Below are positions 1 to 6,258 of a stretch of 64,000 bases of DNA, piece after piece (position 1 is the stretch's first letter; each line of letters opens with the position of its first letter). A program made the position numbers and the translations under genes. Location: NCBI RefSeq assembly GCF_001187845.1, contig NZ_CP012160.1, positions 2,666,001 to 2,730,000 on the forward strand, in the 5' to 3' direction. The DNA comes from Octadecabacter temperatus. GTDB taxonomy: Bacteria > Pseudomonadota > Alphaproteobacteria > Rhodobacterales > Rhodobacteraceae. The notes under the pieces are model-generated. The model had not been told where the DNA came from, searched no databases, and saw only the letters and a program-made list of their open reading frames with translations.

Positions 1-37
1 ACAACAACAAAAATACCTGCCCCAGCAGCGTGTCCCA

Positions 38-1972
38 TTACCCCTTACTCTCCAAATACCGCCGCTTGGCTTCCTCGGAACGCTCAAAGTCGCGCATCAT
101 GTTTTCGATCGCCACCTCGTCGGATTTATCCGCATAGCGGAACTCTGAATCCGCGTAGCGGTTGATTTCCTGAATGACCATTTCAACGGTGATTGGCTTG
201 CGCATATCGTTGATCATCGCCAGCTTGGTGTCGTAGTCCTTCGCCATGAACAGGTCAGGCGTTTCCATCCATTTGTCCGGTAATTCAAAGTCCATCGCGC
301 GCACCTTAACGGCGTCCGTGATGTTCTTGATCGCACGCCCCGTAAAGCGTGGGTCAGCCTCTTGGATGCCTTTCAGATAGGTCCCGAGCTTGGCAATCGT
401 GTCCAGTTCACCAATGTCGCTCGACACGCGATCAAACACGTTCATCAACCCAGGCTCATGCGGTTTGGAATGCCCTTCAAAGCTGGCAGCGACGGCCTTC
501 TTGATTTCCTGCGCGCTGAACACTTCATGTTCGCCGACCGGAATATCGTGGTTCTTGCCCATCAACAGATACAGGATGTCGATGTAGTCATCCCGCGTCT
601 GCGGGCCGTCGACAAGGAACCGCGCCCCTGCCCGCTGGCGCAGCGCATCGTCGACGTTTTCAGGATAGTTCGAAAACATCCCGAACGTGCAGTTGCCGCG
701 CACGACCGTGTTGGCACCCGCAAAGCTTTCCATGAGCACGGCTGTAATCTCAAGCTGGCCCGCCGAAGATTGGCGATCGCCACGCTTCCCCGCTAGTTGG
801 TCAATATCGTCAATCGTGCCAAAGCCGATAACGTTCGGATCAATCACGTTGTTGATAAACGCCTTGGCGTTCTGGCCTGATTTACCCTGATAACTGTCGA
901 TATTGTCCGTCGAAAGATTCTGATACCGGAAAGGATAATCCGCGACCTTGCAGTACTCGGAGATCAGCCCTGCCATCATCTGGATCAGCGTAGTTTTACC
1001 CGTGCCAGGCGCACCATCCCCCATGAAGGTAAAGATAAAGCCGCCGAGTTCAGCAAACGGGTTCAGTTTGCGTTCAAAATCATAGGCCATGACCATCTTA
1101 GCCAGCTTCATCGCTTGATATTTGGCGATGTGGTTGCCGACGACCTCATTGGGTTTCTTGAACGTCATTGTAAGGGTCGACGACTTCGCCGCACTCGCAG
1201 GGCTGAACCCGCGAATGGTCAGATCATCGGATTCAACCTTCCAAGACGCATCAGAAAACGCAGCCAGCCGTCCAGCGGTGCTCGCGCGCGCCGCGACTTT
1301 CGCCATCAGCTGTTCGGCGTAAGCAAGTACCGTAGGTACAAGCCGCTCGTCACTATCAGAAAACAGCCCGATGTCTTGGTCCAGCTCCCACAACGCGCCG
1401 TGCAGGGCGAGCGTTGAATTGTCGCTCAGCACCTCTTCGACTTCACCAACTTCAACCGTTTCCTCGCCTGCATGGGACGCCAATAGGAAGGACGTGGCAT
1501 TGCCAAAGACATACAGCACCGCGAGGGCCTCTGCCGCGAGCAGTTCGGAAAACTCAGTTTTCTTTCCCGCTGCCAAAGACCCTTCAAGGTTAGCGCGTTT
1601 CAGATCCGCCAACCCTGTGCGGTCGCTAAATTGCTCACCCACGGCCAGTGCAATCGCCAAGGCGCGGCGCAGCCCATGCTGTACGCTGGCCTGCGTAGGC
1701 GACGTCAGTCCATCGCCATCATCAGCCGCCTCAATACGCGCCGCCAGTTGCACCCCTTCAGTGCGCGCCGTAGACCGTGTTACCAGACCGAGCGTCGTCG
1801 TGCGAAACCGTCGCCGCGTGCCGATCCCGCTGGATTTCTCAGGCGCAGCGACCTCTTTGGTTTCCGCAATACGGGGCGTGTGATCAAAGCCCATGACCAT
1901 CGCAGTCGCAGCTTCGTAATGCTTTGCGATATCTTCCTCGCGCAGCTCCATCGTGTCACTAGTTTGGCTCAT
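38..1972 (-). CDS. AAA+ ATPase of an uncharacterised four-gene operon
   Basis: A 644-residue protein with a roughly 300-residue N-terminal region that I do not recognise, followed by one AAA+ module. Walker A is GDGAPGTGKTT at about residues 318-328. Walker B is VIGFGTIDDID at about 381-391. A sensor-1-like asparagine lies in GMFSNYPEN (about 430-438) and an arginine-finger-like RQRAGAR lies at about 445-451. A lid-like helical tail follows. The ATG has GAGGA eight bases upstream. It is the last gene of the operon that lies wholly in the window, 16 bases after its upstream neighbour, and the operon may continue past the left edge. Its single AAA+ module suggests it remodels or unfolds a partner, possibly the coiled-coil protein encoded upstream. 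The biochemical role is unknown. Confidence 0.85.
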   Translation of the reverse strand: MSQTSDTMELREEDIAKHYEAATAMVMGFDHTPRIAETKEVAAPEKSSGIGTRRRFRTTTLGLVTRSTARTEGVQLAARIEAADDGDGLTSPTQASVQHGLRRALAIALAVGEQFSDRTGLADLKRANLEGSLAAGKKTEFSELLAAEALAVLYVFGNATSFLLASHAGEETVEVGEVEEVLSDNSTLALHGALWELDQDIGLFSDSDERLVPTVLAYAEQLMAKVAARASTAGRLAAFSDASWKVESDDLTIRGFSPASAAKSSTLTMTFKKPNEVVGNHIAKYQAMKLAKMVMAYDFERKLNPFAELGGFIFTFMGDGAPGTGKTTLIQMMAGLISEYCKVADYPFRYQNLSTDNIDSYQGKSGQNAKAFINNVIDPNVIGFGTIDDIDQLAGKRGDRQSSAGQLEITAVLMESFAGANTVVRGNCTFGMFSNYPENVDDALRQRAGARFLVDGPQTRDDYIDILYLLMGKNHDIPVGEHEVFSAQEIKKAVAASFEGHSKPHEPGLMNVFDRVSSDIGELDTIAKLGTYLKGIQEADPRFTGRAIKNITDAVKVRAMDFELPDKWMETPDLFMAKDYDTKLAMINDMRKPITVEMVIQEINRYADSEFRYADKSDEVAIENMMRDFERSEEAKRRYLESKG

Positions 1973-1988
1973 AAATACGTCCTCAAAT

Positions 1989-3107
1989 CTATTTGTAACT
2001 CAACACGCTGCCGTTCGGCGAAACCACGAATTTGCGCACGTCGTTGAACCCCGCAGGCTTGCGCTCCTCGAGGGCCTGATACGGGCGTTGTGGCAAGATG
2101 ATGCTGCGTTCTACTTTCGTTGCACCGGACTCGGCGCCATGTCCCGCGAAGGGGTCCAACGCAAAGGTTTCGCGTTCTACCGTGCCAAACCAGCCGGACT
2201 TTTCGCGGCGCGTTTCCGAACTTACCAGTTCTTCTTCCGTCCAAACCAACGCCCAATCTTCGCCGACGGGTGCGCGTGCCAATTCCAGCACTTCCCGCAG
2301 CGGTCCAGCCTGCCGCGTGAACGCGTTGGAGTACATTGGCCCCACGTGGAAGCGGCGTAGGCGTTTGGGGTGCAGGTCGTCAAAATCTTCATCGAACCCT
2401 TTGGCGATGGTCAACAGCTTGAGGCCGCCCAGTGATTGCGCCATCAGGTGCGCCTGCACTTCAGGCCAACGGCGATCATCCTTAGGCAGGCCAATACGCC
2501 CTGTATCCTCGACCTCCATCATGTAGATCGTCGGCAGATTGATCATGCTGTCATAAACGGCCCAATGGACCATGAATTCACGGCGCATTTTCTGCTTGTT
2601 GCCAAGCCAAACAGCCGTCGGATCATTTCGCGCCCAGAATAGCTCACCCTTTTGCAGCTCTTCGTAATACAACCGCTGGCTCAGCGCGTATTGCAGCTTC
2701 GTGGGGATTTCCTGTTCGTTCAGGATTACCCGCACCATGTCCTGCTTAAGCTGCTCAACCGAGCGCATGCCCGCGAGATGCTTGTCCGCCTGCGCTGCAT
2801 CATTCGCCATGCTCAGAAGTTCGTTGTGAACGGGAAAACCGCTCTCCACCCGATCAAACGTCAGCTTACCCGCATGGGCGAACCGCCCGCTGAAATGGTA
2901 CTTATGCGCCAGTGCTTGAAACGTGTAGTTCAGCCCAACAATATAGCGCGTCATCACCTCAACATCGCGCTTGGACAAACGGTTCTCCGCCTCAAGCGTC
3001 GCCGCAACACGGCCAAGATGGCCGATTATCTTCTCAAACTTGCCAAAATACCGCCGCGTGACGCGGGTGTCTTCAAGCTGGAAATGATCGTAGGCGGCGT
3101 CAGTCAT
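1989..3107 (-). CDS. Conserved protein of unknown function, AAA+ operon
   Basis: About 372 residues, soluble, with no signal peptide or membrane segment and no domain I can name. The N-terminal half is mostly helical in character and the C-terminal half has more mixed, strand-like sequence. I chose the ATG at 3107 rather than the in-frame ATG at 3122. It has GAAGG at a good distance and overlaps the upstream stop by only eight bases (ATGACTGA), which fits translational coupling. It lies between the two-TM protein and the AAA+ ATPase, so an adaptor or substrate role is possible but unproven. Confidence 0.75.
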   Translation of the reverse strand: MTDAAYDHFQLEDTRVTRRYFGKFEKIIGHLGRVAATLEAENRLSKRDVEVMTRYIVGLNYTFQALAHKYHFSGRFAHAGKLTFDRVESGFPVHNELLSMANDAAQADKHLAGMRSVEQLKQDMVRVILNEQEIPTKLQYALSQRLYYEELQKGELFWARNDPTAVWLGNKQKMRREFMVHWAVYDSMINLPTIYMMEVEDTGRIGLPKDDRRWPEVQAHLMAQSLGGLKLLTIAKGFDEDFDDLHPKRLRRFHVGPMYSNAFTRQAGPLREVLELARAPVGEDWALVWTEEELVSSETRREKSGWFGTVERETFALDPFAGHGAESGATKVERSIILPQRPYQALEERKPAGFNDVRKFVVSPNGSVLSYK

Positions 3108-3417
3108 ATCGTTGACCTTCATGTGGACATTGCAACCACCATTTTACTGGAACGTAGAACAGAGCCAATGCGCCTAAGACATCAATTGTTTCAGAGCCAA
3201 AAGCGAGGCCGAATTTATCAGCGATTGCGGTAATAGACGAAGCAACAACAATAAAACCACAAAGCAACACAAAGACAACGAAGGTCCCGAGCAGCTCGGA
3301 AAATGGCTGTCGAGCCCGTGACGCTTGCGTCGCGGGCAGCCCCCGACCGCCCCCCTGGGCGGGGGCTTCACCCCCACCCGCGGACGGGGGCTGCCCTATA
3401 TTGCTTTCAGACTCCAT
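3100..3417 (-). CDS. Small two-TM membrane protein, AAA+ operon
   Basis: A 105-residue protein. Residues about 8-30 are Gly/Pro/Ala-rich and are encoded by a GC-rich inverted repeat (see the repeat at 3334-3396). Two hydrophobic segments follow, around residues 43-65 (GTFVVFVLLCGFIVVASS) and 80-95 (VLGALALFYVPVKWW). It probably anchors the complex to the inner membrane, which is an inference from the operon. No other ATG lies in the frame, so the repeat-derived N-terminus is either really translated or the true start is a downstream non-ATG codon. Its stop overlaps the next gene by eight bases. Confidence 0.65.
   Translation of the reverse strand: MESESNIGQPPSAGGGEAPAQGGGRGLPATQASRARQPFSELLGTFVVFVLLCGFIVVASSITAIADKFGLAFGSETIDVLGALALFYVPVKWWLQCPHEGQRYD
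3334..3396. repeat. REP-like GC-rich inverted repeat inside a coding start
   Basis: GGGCAGCCCCCG (3334-3345) and CGGGGGCTGCCC (3385-3396) are exact complements, with a further GGGGG/CCCCC pairing between them. The sequence encodes the Gly/Pro-rich N-terminus of the two-TM protein. The GGGGGCTGCCC core also occurs in the intergenic repeat at 35646. Confidence 0.7.
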
Positions 3418-3426
3418 CCCTTCGGA

Positions 3427-4503
3427 TCAAGCCCCATATTCATTGCTGTCGTGCTTCTCAACGATCTTCGCGAACCGCCGCATGAAACGCTCATCGGCCT
3501 TGGCCTTTTGCTCCAGCACTTCGCGGGCGAACACCATGTGGTCTTCGTGGGCTTCCATCATTTCGGCCATACGTGCGTTCGTCGCGGAGCCAATCGCCGC
3601 CATCGCGGTTTGTGCTTCTTGGTCCGTCTTCACGCCGATCTCGTTGATGCGATGGGCAACGTCTTGCTGCTGCGCCGTCTTCAAGGATTTCGTCAGGGCG
3701 TCATACAGAACGACCCGCTGCTTGGTGTCTGTTTGCAGCTTGTTGATCAGCACCATCTGCGTCGCCGCTTGGTTCTGCAGACTGTCGATCCAGGTCTTCC
3801 CCTTCTCGATGTAGCGTTCCAACGTTTGGGATTTCGCAAGCTTCACCTGCTCCTGCTGAACCGCCTCGTTATAAGCGCCGTTCATCTTCGCCAGTTCAGT
3901 CTCAAGCTTGGTGCGCGCAGCCGCGTCCTGTTCAACGGAAATCTTGTTCTCAAGCGTGATGATCGCAGGGTCCATGCCGAGGATCTCAGCGCGGATTGCC
4001 TCAAGTTCACCGACAACCGTTTCACGTTCCGTCAGGGTTCCGCCAAGATTGCCTTCAACCTTCGTCTTTTGCTCCTCCAAAATCACCAATTGGTTTTCCA
4101 GCAGCTTGGTAATCACGTCGGACTTTGAAATCAGGTCCTGCAGTTTGTCGTCCACAGACGCACTACGCATCCGCTCTTCGCGCATGGAATCCGACTTGGC
4201 GCCGCTAAAGAAGCCAACAAAGCTTTCCCAACCGGTCTTGGAGCGCATCTCGTCGAAGTCTTGTTGGAAGCCGGACGTCACATCGTCCAAGCCCATGATC
4301 AGTTCCGCGATGTTCGCGTTCATCAATTCGGTATGAGCATGTACGTCCTCAAGCGAGGCATTCTCGATATCGACGGCAATGTCGGCACCTTCGGCCATCT
4401 TCTGGCGCGCGGTCTCAATCCGGCTGGTAAGTTCTGAAATCTTGGATTGAGCTTCCGCAACCTCTGTCTGGGATTTACGGATCTGAGCGTCAAAATCGGC
4501 CAT
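3427..4503 (-). CDS. Long coiled-coil protein, first gene of the AAA+ operon
   Basis: A 358-residue, highly charged, almost entirely helical protein without a signal peptide or membrane segment. Heptad-like runs cover most of the length, broken by a short aromatic stretch near residues 95-105 (GWESFVGFFSG). The general look recalls PspA/IM30 or TelA-type membrane-stress proteins, but I see no diagnostic motif of either family. The ATG at 4503 has GAGGA six bases upstream and is preferred over an in-frame GTG at 4515. It leads the operon and would be the obvious oligomeric partner or substrate of the AAA+ ATPase. Confidence 0.75.
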   Translation of the reverse strand: MADFDAQIRKSQTEVAEAQSKISELTSRIETARQKMAEGADIAVDIENASLEDVHAHTELMNANIAELIMGLDDVTSGFQQDFDEMRSKTGWESFVGFFSGAKSDSMREERMRSASVDDKLQDLISKSDVITKLLENQLVILEEQKTKVEGNLGGTLTERETVVGELEAIRAEILGMDPAIITLENKISVEQDAAARTKLETELAKMNGAYNEAVQQEQVKLAKSQTLERYIEKGKTWIDSLQNQAATQMVLINKLQTDTKQRVVLYDALTKSLKTAQQQDVAHRINEIGVKTDQEAQTAMAAIGSATNARMAEMMEAHEDHMVFAREVLEQKAKADERFMRRFAKIVEKHDSNEYGA

Positions 4504-4657: not shown

Positions 4658-5203
4658 ATGAACATCGTTCAAACAATCACTCCACCTCGTTTCCTCGCCC
4701 TCTGCCTGGGTACGTTGATCTTGGTGTTTTACCATTTAGGGCGACGCCCAGCGCTTTTGGAATACGCGACCAGCGGCAAAGCATTACCGATTTTTGTTGC
4801 CATCTCTTGTTTGCTGGTCTTGGGTTATGGACTGGCGATGCTGTGGTGGCTGATCCGCCAAACCAAAGGTCAATTCAAAGAGACTTTTCGCCCGACCCGT
4901 GGGCGGATAATTGGGGCGTTCAGCTTAATGTTTGTCACGCCGGTTGTCGTTTTTTCAGAGGTTCCTTGGATCCTCGGCGTGCTGACTTTCATGGTTGTTG
5001 TGAATGGCAACGCAGATTCCCTATGGGGCATCGGCTTGATTTTGGGTAGCACTTTGGTTCTCTACCCTTTGTCCGCGATGATCTTGCGCCACACGTATCA
5101 CCGCCGCTGGATGCGTTTTGGACTTTTTTGCCTTAGCTTCTGGTCTGCTTACGCCGCCCACCTGCTGGTGAACGGAGTAATGAAGTTCACACTAGTCCTT
5201 TAG
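4658..5203 (+). CDS. Hypothetical integral membrane protein
   Basis: A 181-residue protein with about five hydrophobic segments, for example LALCLGTLILVFY near the start, a 20-residue segment around 45-65, and others to the C-terminus. I cannot assign a family. The reading frame opens earlier, but the ATG at 4658 gives a natural MNIVQTITPPRF start. It is divergent from the AAA+ operon and overlaps the stop of the L,D-transpeptidase gene tail-to-tail by four bases. Confidence 0.6.
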   Translation: MNIVQTITPPRFLALCLGTLILVFYHLGRRPALLEYATSGKALPIFVAISCLLVLGYGLAMLWWLIRQTKGQFKETFRPTRGRIIGAFSLMFVTPVVVFSEVPWILGVLTFMVVVNGNADSLWGIGLILGSTLVLYPLSAMILRHTYHRRWMRFGLFCLSFWSAYAAHLLVNGVMKFTLVL

Positions 5204-6033
5204 CCGCCCGAAATAGTACTCGCGCTCAGCGGATCAACGGCGACGTCTTCCGCGATCTCATCCAACTCAACTACTGCATCATTTTCGCCAGTGCCGTAAA
5301 TCAAATCCGGATCAACGATATTCGGCGCAAGAATTACACCACGATTGGCAAGCTCCTCGCCCTCCAACTCAACCGACTGCGTCTTTGAGCGAACGACAAC
5401 GCGGGTGCCGTTCGGCACGCGGGGGTACAGGTCGATGATGTCGTGGTTGAACATACGGATACAGCCCGCGGAACCAGAGTTACCGATAGATGGCAAATCG
5501 TTGGTGCCATGAATACGGAAGTGGGTGTCACGCCCGTTCTGGAATAAATACAGCGCCCGCGCACCCAGTGGGCTGGCCAAACCACCCTCAACGCCTTGGG
5601 CGAAGGGGCCATAAACTTCTGGCTGACTGCGCAACATATTTGCTGTCGGCGTCCAACCCGGCCATTCGCGCTTAAGCTGAATAGTAGACGGGCGGCTCAT
5701 ACGGGCACCTTGGCGGCCAACCGCAATCGGGTAACGCCGTGCCATGCCGTCGTCTTCAACGAAATACAAAAGCTTCGCATGCGGATCGATAACGATCGTG
5801 CCTGCTCGCTCTGGTCCGTTATACTCAACGATTGCGCGTTGATTTACACTTTGCAAATACTCAGGTGGGATCGGCGGCAGCGTGTATTCACCGTCCTCAA
5901 GAAGCCCATAGCCTTCAACGATCTCCGTTACCGGCACATCGCCAATCATTTCAACTTCAGTGGAGCAAGCGGCGAGAAGCGATAGCCCCAATACACCTAG
6001 CGTTTCGCGAAAATAACGTTTGGCAATCTGCAT
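5200..6033 (-). CDS. L,D-transpeptidase (YkuD domain) lipoprotein
   Basis: A 277-residue periplasmic enzyme that would make or edit 3-3 peptidoglycan crosslinks or attach proteins to peptidoglycan. The start at 6033 (MQIAKRYF) has CGAGGA upstream and gives a lipoprotein signal with lipobox LLAAC (Cys 23). The YkuD domain carries the HGTND histidine motif and the catalytic GSAGCIRM cysteine motif, both intact. The C-terminal 50 residues are acidic. It has no close functional neighbour. The family assignment is strong, but the physiological acceptor is unknown. Confidence 0.9.
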   Translation of the reverse strand: MQIAKRYFRETLGVLGLSLLAACSTEVEMIGDVPVTEIVEGYGLLEDGEYTLPPIPPEYLQSVNQRAIVEYNGPERAGTIVIDPHAKLLYFVEDDGMARRYPIAVGRQGARMSRPSTIQLKREWPGWTPTANMLRSQPEVYGPFAQGVEGGLASPLGARALYLFQNGRDTHFRIHGTNDLPSIGNSGSAGCIRMFNHDIIDLYPRVPNGTRVVVRSKTQSVELEGEELANRGVILAPNIVDPDLIYGTGENDAVVELDEIAEDVAVDPLSASTISGG

Positions 6034-6258
6034 TTCAGTCCTCGGTTGAAAATTCTTTCGCAAACACTAGCAGTCACATCAGGCCCAAAACCACCCCTAT
6101 TAGCCCCTTCAACGTCAGTTTTTGCTCCGGCGCACAAATTTCTAGAACTTTGCAGCAACTCCGAGCATGTTGGCCACGCGAATTGCATCAAAAAATGCCA
6201 AATCTGTCATTGGATGCGCGGCTAGACGAAAAGCGTAGTGGTAACGAAGGACCGGCAA

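Follow-up and report, generated by a model that had tools for sequence, protein, structure and literature searches.

What, if anything, do the four adjacent genes at the left end of a 64,000-nucleotide stretch of the Octadecabacter temperatus genome do together? This stretch, which we call the window, covers bases 2666001-2730000 of contig C1 in a 3.26-Mb genome, and the closest named homologues came from Octadecabacter and other Rhodobacteraceae. A preliminary description had seen a four-gene unit in which a coiled-coil protein, a small membrane protein, a protein of no recognised kind and an AAA+ ATPase (P1 to P4) might form a membrane-anchored machine remodelling a filament, possibly in defence. 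We find that P1, P3 and P4, together with a fourth protein, P8, encoded beyond the left edge of the window, are close to certainly one unit that is kept and lost as a whole.

The operon and its conserved core

The four open reading frames (ORFs) were found as described, co-directional and with short gaps or overlaps, and all of them lie on the minus strand, which had been left unstated. In the order of transcription, P1 (4503-3427) encodes a 358-residue protein that is an all-helical coiled coil in its AF2 model, and P2 (3417-3100) encodes a 105-residue protein assigned to the membrane by hydropathy. They are followed by P3 (3107-1989), a 372-residue soluble protein modelled by AF2 with a helical N-terminus and then a beta-rich part, and by P4 (1972-38), a 644-residue AAA+ ATPase recognised by PF00004, of which the N-terminal ~265 residues are poorly conserved. 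The genes are spaced by 9, -8 and 16 bp; the P3 reading frame is open to 3122 (377 residues), and the length of 372 is counted from the ATG at 3107. The suggestion that the operon extends past the left edge proved correct, as six more genes on the same strand, P5, P6, P7, P8, P8b and P9, follow there (locus L004, 8732-12038) with gaps of -8 to +11 bp. P1-P4 are thus the first of ten co-directional genes with intergenic gaps of at most 16 bp. The beginning of P5, a 114-residue membrane protein, occupies positions 1-38 (minus strand), from which the run continues leftward in the parent genome. P5, P6 and P7 (114, 114 and 108 residues) are hydrophobic, P8 (447 residues) is a full-length member of DUF6638 (PF20343; 789.9 bits against a gathering threshold of 27), and P8b (89 residues) and the DUF1523 protein P9 (224 residues, 202 bits) each carry two hydrophobic segments. 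P1-P3 matched no Pfam or NCBIfam family above the cut-off. The earlier view that no known named system has this arrangement held for Pfam, NCBIfam and PADLOC, where P1-P4 gave a generic AAA match and weak matches, and P8 and P9 belonged to families that are uncharacterised.

Relatives of P4 were collected with up to 8 kb of flanking sequence on their genome contigs, and the loci of the best 80 of 583 relatives were searched by tblastn with P1-P9. The order P1-P3-P4-P8 was kept in 78 of these 80 Rhodobacteraceae-type loci; the two loci in which P1 was not found (L005 and L032) start near a contig end. P8b and P9 were each present in 78 loci, P6 in 30, and P5 and P7 in none. P2 was matched in only four, three times beyond P9 and once between P4 and P8, and never between P1 and P3. 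Over 88 loci, the spacing of the core genes varied from -9 to 803 bp between P1 and P3 and from 6 to 2108 bp between P4 and P8, and these spaces often carried small membrane ORFs. The stable core is therefore P1, P3, P4 and P8, which P8b and P9 join in Rhodobacteraceae-type loci. Over a set of 89 loci, the P8b cluster was found in 83 and the DUF1523 cluster in 84. Given the tblastn counts and the variable small ORFs between core genes, P2 is one of several changing accessories and lies outside the core. The four-gene unit first proposed thus stood for P1, P3 and P4, whereas its small membrane protein is variable and the fourth core gene, P8, lies outside the window.

Conservation of gene order across genera had been chosen beforehand as the check for a dedicated system. 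The order was conserved, and it extended to other families, to rhizobia and to Vibrio megaplasmids. The same core order was seen in loci L158-L165, L170, L171, L174, L175 and L177-L179, and the full core was present in named records of Sinorhizobium meliloti, Rhizobium leguminosarum and a Shinella, as well as on 0.9-Mb plasmids of Vibrio parahaemolyticus and V. vulnificus. P1 was 37-41% identical over the alignment in rhizobial-type loci and 35% in Vibrio; by tblastn, the Vibrio locus L174 showed 39% identity to our P1, 28% to P3, 40% to P4 and 25% to P8, and the Vibrio P8 relative is annotated as a 'DUF6638 family protein'. In rhizobial-type loci L160-L162, L175 and L179 a DUF2333 gene directly follows P8, and the two examples read had one or two N-terminal hydrophobic segments; no DUF2333 match was found in L177. 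A passage of PMC5256989 calls duf2333 uncharacterised. P9 and DUF2333 showed no sequence relation (hhalign probability 0.3-0.6%), and eight hhalign pairings among P3, P8, the N-terminal part of P4, DUF1523 and DUF2333 gave probabilities of 0.1-1.8%.

Individual loci showed further variation. In S. meliloti P4 and P8 are separated by an ORF with an endonuclease domain and an IS4-type transposase. The R. leguminosarum record pSK03 (L176, 7794-10148) contains a lone, strongly diverged P1-like protein (25% identity) followed by DUF2333, with no match to P3, P4 or P8. The P1-like gene sits between the genes for thymidine kinase and formate-THF (tetrahydrofolate) ligase, as in S. meliloti (L175), and this locus may be a reduced form of the unit. 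On the Vibrio plasmids (L174 and L178) the core adjoins an mfd gene, and many neighbours are annotated as hypothetical. In L158 (genome G814, 5098-6114) a protein judged by eye to be PspA-like and a 93-residue membrane protein lie beyond the operon, past one gene on the opposite strand.

Co-occurrence and inheritance of the core genes

Co-occurrence was counted for P1, P3 and P8, leaving P4 aside, in 248 genomes of the same family. P1 was present in 106, P3 in 105 and P8 in 112; all three were found together in 104 genomes, all were missing from 135, and an incomplete set was seen in nine. Five of these nine are below 90% completeness, and another two (G296 and G343) are 91-92% complete and divided into 70 and 370 contigs. 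In the remaining two, each 99% complete, only a short piece of P8 is kept (G336) or P8 lies near a contig start (G233). This near-perfect co-occurrence, together with the conserved order, gives good support to the existence of a dedicated system. In broader samples, 113 of 196 order-level genomes contained P1 and three of 190 class-level genomes contained P4 (E<=1e-10), while DUF6638 was present in eight of 385 class-level genomes (seven above the cut-off), 20 of 299 phylum-level genomes and none of 14 control genomes. From the low class- and phylum-level counts, the unit is rare outside the family.

Pairwise distances of P1, P3, P4 and P8 were closely correlated (r 0.95-0.98; 34 of 75 complete loci), and among Rhodobacteraceae-type loci together with ours the values were 0.75-0.90; the comparison covered the four core proteins and no unrelated control gene, so that the correlation is partly due to common descent of the hosts. 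In genome G528 (L172, 7363-10800) all four core genes have decayed into pieces that remain in place and in the original order. This joint decay and the all-or-none pattern are the strongest evidence that the four genes form one functional unit. In a tree of the concatenated proteins, locus L159, from a genome of another class (G622), fell inside the Rhodobacteraceae-type clade beside L060, L049, L066, L042 and L057 (support 1.0), and this nested placement suggests that the unit was transferred to another class.

Such a distribution could also be expected of an anti-phage or conflict system, with an AAA+ core that stays constant, acts as the sensor and controls small, rapidly diverging membrane effectors. 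The patchy presence (P8 in fewer than half of the family genomes), the changing small transmembrane (TM) ORFs in two slots, the location on Vibrio megaplasmids and the suggested transfer of L159 would fit, as would PADLOC matches of P4 to TRIP13 (E 7.4e-6) and IetA (E 0.002). These two matches, however, span the AAA domain only. The PADLOC scan covered P1-P4 of the core and assigned them to no system; at E<=1 every match was weak or confined to the AAA domain, the others being to REase_II (E 7e-4), LmuB (0.006) and NsnC (0.08) for P1 and to Cas8c (0.03) for P3, with none for P2. Inheritance is largely congruent, and L158, L159 and L164 have no small TM ORF between core genes. P4 had no match in phage records or viral contigs, which also speaks against a viral origin; the single P1 relative among viral contigs (L203) sits at the end of its contig and is probably host flank. 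We therefore regard a conflict system as decidedly unlikely, and the defence function suggested in the preliminary description received no positive support.

P4 has the motifs of a classical AAA ATPase with an altered Walker B

P4 matched the AAA family PF00004 with 44.5 bits (gathering threshold 21.2). Its motifs were checked in 19 aligned sequences, including the 40%-identical Vibrio protein, and all coordinates below are on the minus strand. Walker A (GxPGTGKT, residues 320-327; 992..1015) was intact, its tested key positions being invariant in 19/19. The Walker B motif, also described initially as intact, reads GFGTIDDID; its acidic pair D388-D389 (806..811) is invariant, with DD in place of DE in all 19 relatives. 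When aligned with the DE of the i-AAA protease, the position of the usual catalytic Glu is occupied by Asp in P4. Y361-Q362-G363 (884..892) is the putative pore loop 1, as placed by the AAA alignment, and R445, R447 and R451 (620..640) are candidate arginine fingers, likewise from their position; all are invariant in 19/19, as are N435 and R546. Identity between our P4 and that of Vibrio was 22% over the first 265 residues and 67% over residues 311-480. The best solved matches were the i-AAA protease, proteasome Rpt, VCP-like and katanin ATPases by profile, and fidgetin-like 1, i-AAA protease, Vps4 and katanin by single sequence. By sequence, P4 thus has the hallmarks of a classical AAA ATPase of the ring-forming kind, and on the strength of its motifs it is likely to be an energy-using remodeller.

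An energy-using AAA+ protein could also serve as a maturation or repair chaperone of the MoxR, NorQ or Rubisco-activase kind, which would load an enzyme or restore its activity; P3 and P8 would then be adaptors for the client, and P1 a spacer. The likeness is that of a soluble AAA+ protein working through partner proteins, and an Asp after the Mg-binding residue is also found in plant Rubisco activase. Partners of MoxR typically contain a VWA domain, whereas the partners encoded here are different: no VWA domain was found in P1-P4 or P5-P9 (a search made without P8b). Moreover, P4 scores with the classical AAA model PF00004, no metabolic client gene is constantly attached to the unit, and the structural matches of P3 fell below the noise level stated for the tool. 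A chaperone of this type is unlikely.

Predicted structures and kinship of P1, P3 and P8

P1, P3 and P8 had no significant sequence match to any solved structure, and in the libraries searched these three core proteins are without relatives of known function. The AF2 model of P1 (pLDDT 69.8) is entirely helical, with two long helices (residues 117-190 and 194-352) and a block at residues 121-260 with pLDDT values of 75-93; its lists of fold matches, examined for an ESCRT-III fold, showed a helical-bundle background. P3 was modelled with higher confidence (pLDDT 89.0, pTM 0.88), and no Foldseek match in the PDB reached E<=0.001. Its weak, sub-noise matches were coherently to the tunnelling fold, over residues of about 172-335. 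Pfam gives no function for the DUF6638 family of P8, and our literature searches on DUF6638 and on the unit in combination found no paper; the fixed tie of this family to P1, P3 and P4 is new here.

The possibility that P1 is a PspA protein was rejected at the sequence level, with an hhalign probability of 6% in local and 8.5% in global mode (0.3% for the reversed P1 control). PF04012 gave no match for P1 and was not among the 25 families listed of the 48 hit by 24 members; the genome encodes a separate PspA.

A second candidate was TelA (PF05816), and P1 might be a very distant relative of this coiled-coil family, placing the unit in a toxic anion resistance or stress system. P1 resembles TelA in being soluble, helical and of about 360-400 residues, and it gave a few weak fold matches. 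Three phage proteins named for tellurite or toxic anion resistance, similar to P1 in length, ranked 4, 27 and 29 when the first 50 BFVD hits to its model were inspected (E 0.005-0.027), although no BFVD match reached E<=0.001, and a 15-residue stretch with WE-x-x-x-G could be aligned at a probability of 4%. The widest hhalign test used 13 TelA sequences, with L208 left out, and 20 block-shuffled controls. It returned a score of 30.1, compared to 17.8-32.3 for the shuffles, one of which (1/20) was higher, so that P1 did not rise clearly above the controls. Probabilities were 1-8% in this test and 0.1-8% in all comparisons, whereas the phage set and the bacterial set of TelA proteins recognise one another with a probability of 100%. 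P1 had no Pfam hit to PF05816, and a separate TelA is encoded elsewhere in the genome. A TelA-type system appears quite improbable. TelA-family matches were seen in 50 phage records, including those of large Lak phages and the Sinorhizobium phage Phosso.

Some P1 homologues carry the database name 'Chromosome partition protein Smc', and a weak Foldseek match of P1 to a coiled-coil segment of SMC was seen, as would be expected if the unit were a chromosome or cell-cycle factor. Since P1 had no ATPase domain hit, the name probably follows the coiled coil alone, and more than half of the family genomes do without the unit; such a role is highly improbable.

A possible remodelling machine at the inner membrane

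We tentatively propose, at rather less than an even chance for the whole chain, that the unit is a four-protein AAA+ remodelling machine acting near the inner membrane. P4 would form a ring and spend ATP to thread or pull a protein substrate, and rod-like P1 would be the likeliest substrate or scaffold. P3 and P8 would be obligatory as adaptors, bringing in either P1 or a client. Docking at the inner membrane could occur via exchangeable membrane proteins, namely P8b and DUF1523 in Rhodobacteraceae, DUF2333 in rhizobia and small variable membrane proteins; the attachment of different membrane proteins to one soluble core lends support to action at the envelope. In this way a P1 assembly would be taken apart in cycles as part of the upkeep of the envelope.

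Several observations weigh against this proposal. No relation by sequence, and no clear one by structure, was seen between P1 and any known polymer, and an Asp at the position of the catalytic Glu could mean slow hydrolysis. In the compact loci L158, L159 and L164 the core genes are separated by gaps of 6 to 138 bp, with no small membrane ORF between them, and in annotation no membrane gene of the DUF1523 or DUF2333 family is attached to the Vibrio unit. Of the membrane-anchored machine acting on a filament that was envisaged at the outset, the dedicated system is well supported; the membrane and filament part we still only infer, in view of the variable P2, the compact loci and the lack of any detectable relation between P1 and the filament protein PspA.

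The closest comparison is with ESCRT-III and Vps4. PMC11237479 describes bacterial loci in which Snf7 or PspA occurs together with classical AAA+ ATPases. Our unit likewise has a coiled-coil gene beside a classical AAA ATPase, one whose solved sequence matches include Vps4 and katanin and which has an aromatic residue at the expected pore loop. It differs in having no detectable PspA sequence in P1 (the profile comparison was made with PspA; Snf7 itself lay outside it) and no MIT domain in P4, for which Pfam hits at E<=1 were AAA and five weak others. It also adds two obligatory proteins, P3 and P8, and the DD Walker B. We liken the unit to ESCRT-III/Vps4 or PspA-AAA pairs in its possible mode of working only, and claim no homology. 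A bolder and clearly more doubtful version of the remodelling proposal is an undescribed bacterial protein-remodelling system in which an AAA+ ring with an Asp Walker B acts on its own type of coiled-coil polymer through two adaptors, one possibly with a tunnelling-fold domain, and is connected to the envelope through interchangeable membrane proteins. Such a system, frequent in Rhodobacteraceae and scattered among rhizobia and Vibrio megaplasmids, would match ESCRT-III/Vps4 in function while consisting of unrelated parts.

Other features of the region

A GC-rich imperfect palindrome at about 3333..3410 overlaps the called start of P2, and a second copy with 85% identity lies at G000:C1:424918-424995. 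As the called start sits in the palindrome, the true start of P2 is uncertain, and its first ~25 residues may not belong to the protein. A promoter scan was at chance level (4 vs 4.9). Terminator-like sites in L004 8400-16900 numbered 18, twice the shuffled expectation of 8.8. The minus-strand ORF at 5200-6063 presumably resembles an L,D-transpeptidase, on a YkuD-like motif judged by eye, and in 27 of 89 loci a cluster of similar ORFs is found close to the operon.

Significance

Core genes that are kept and lost together in distant bacteria point to an undescribed cellular machine. A widespread marine family carries a conserved four-gene unit in which three proteins had no match to a family of known function in our searches, and the combination of a constant core with changing membrane partners is an unusual design. 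The unit merits follow-up mainly because these obligatory core proteins lack such matches, and because the gene set is compact and amenable to genetic work. If P4 does remodel P1, the unit would represent an independent bacterial AAA+/coiled-coil machine and would provide a context for DUF6638, DUF1523 and DUF2333.

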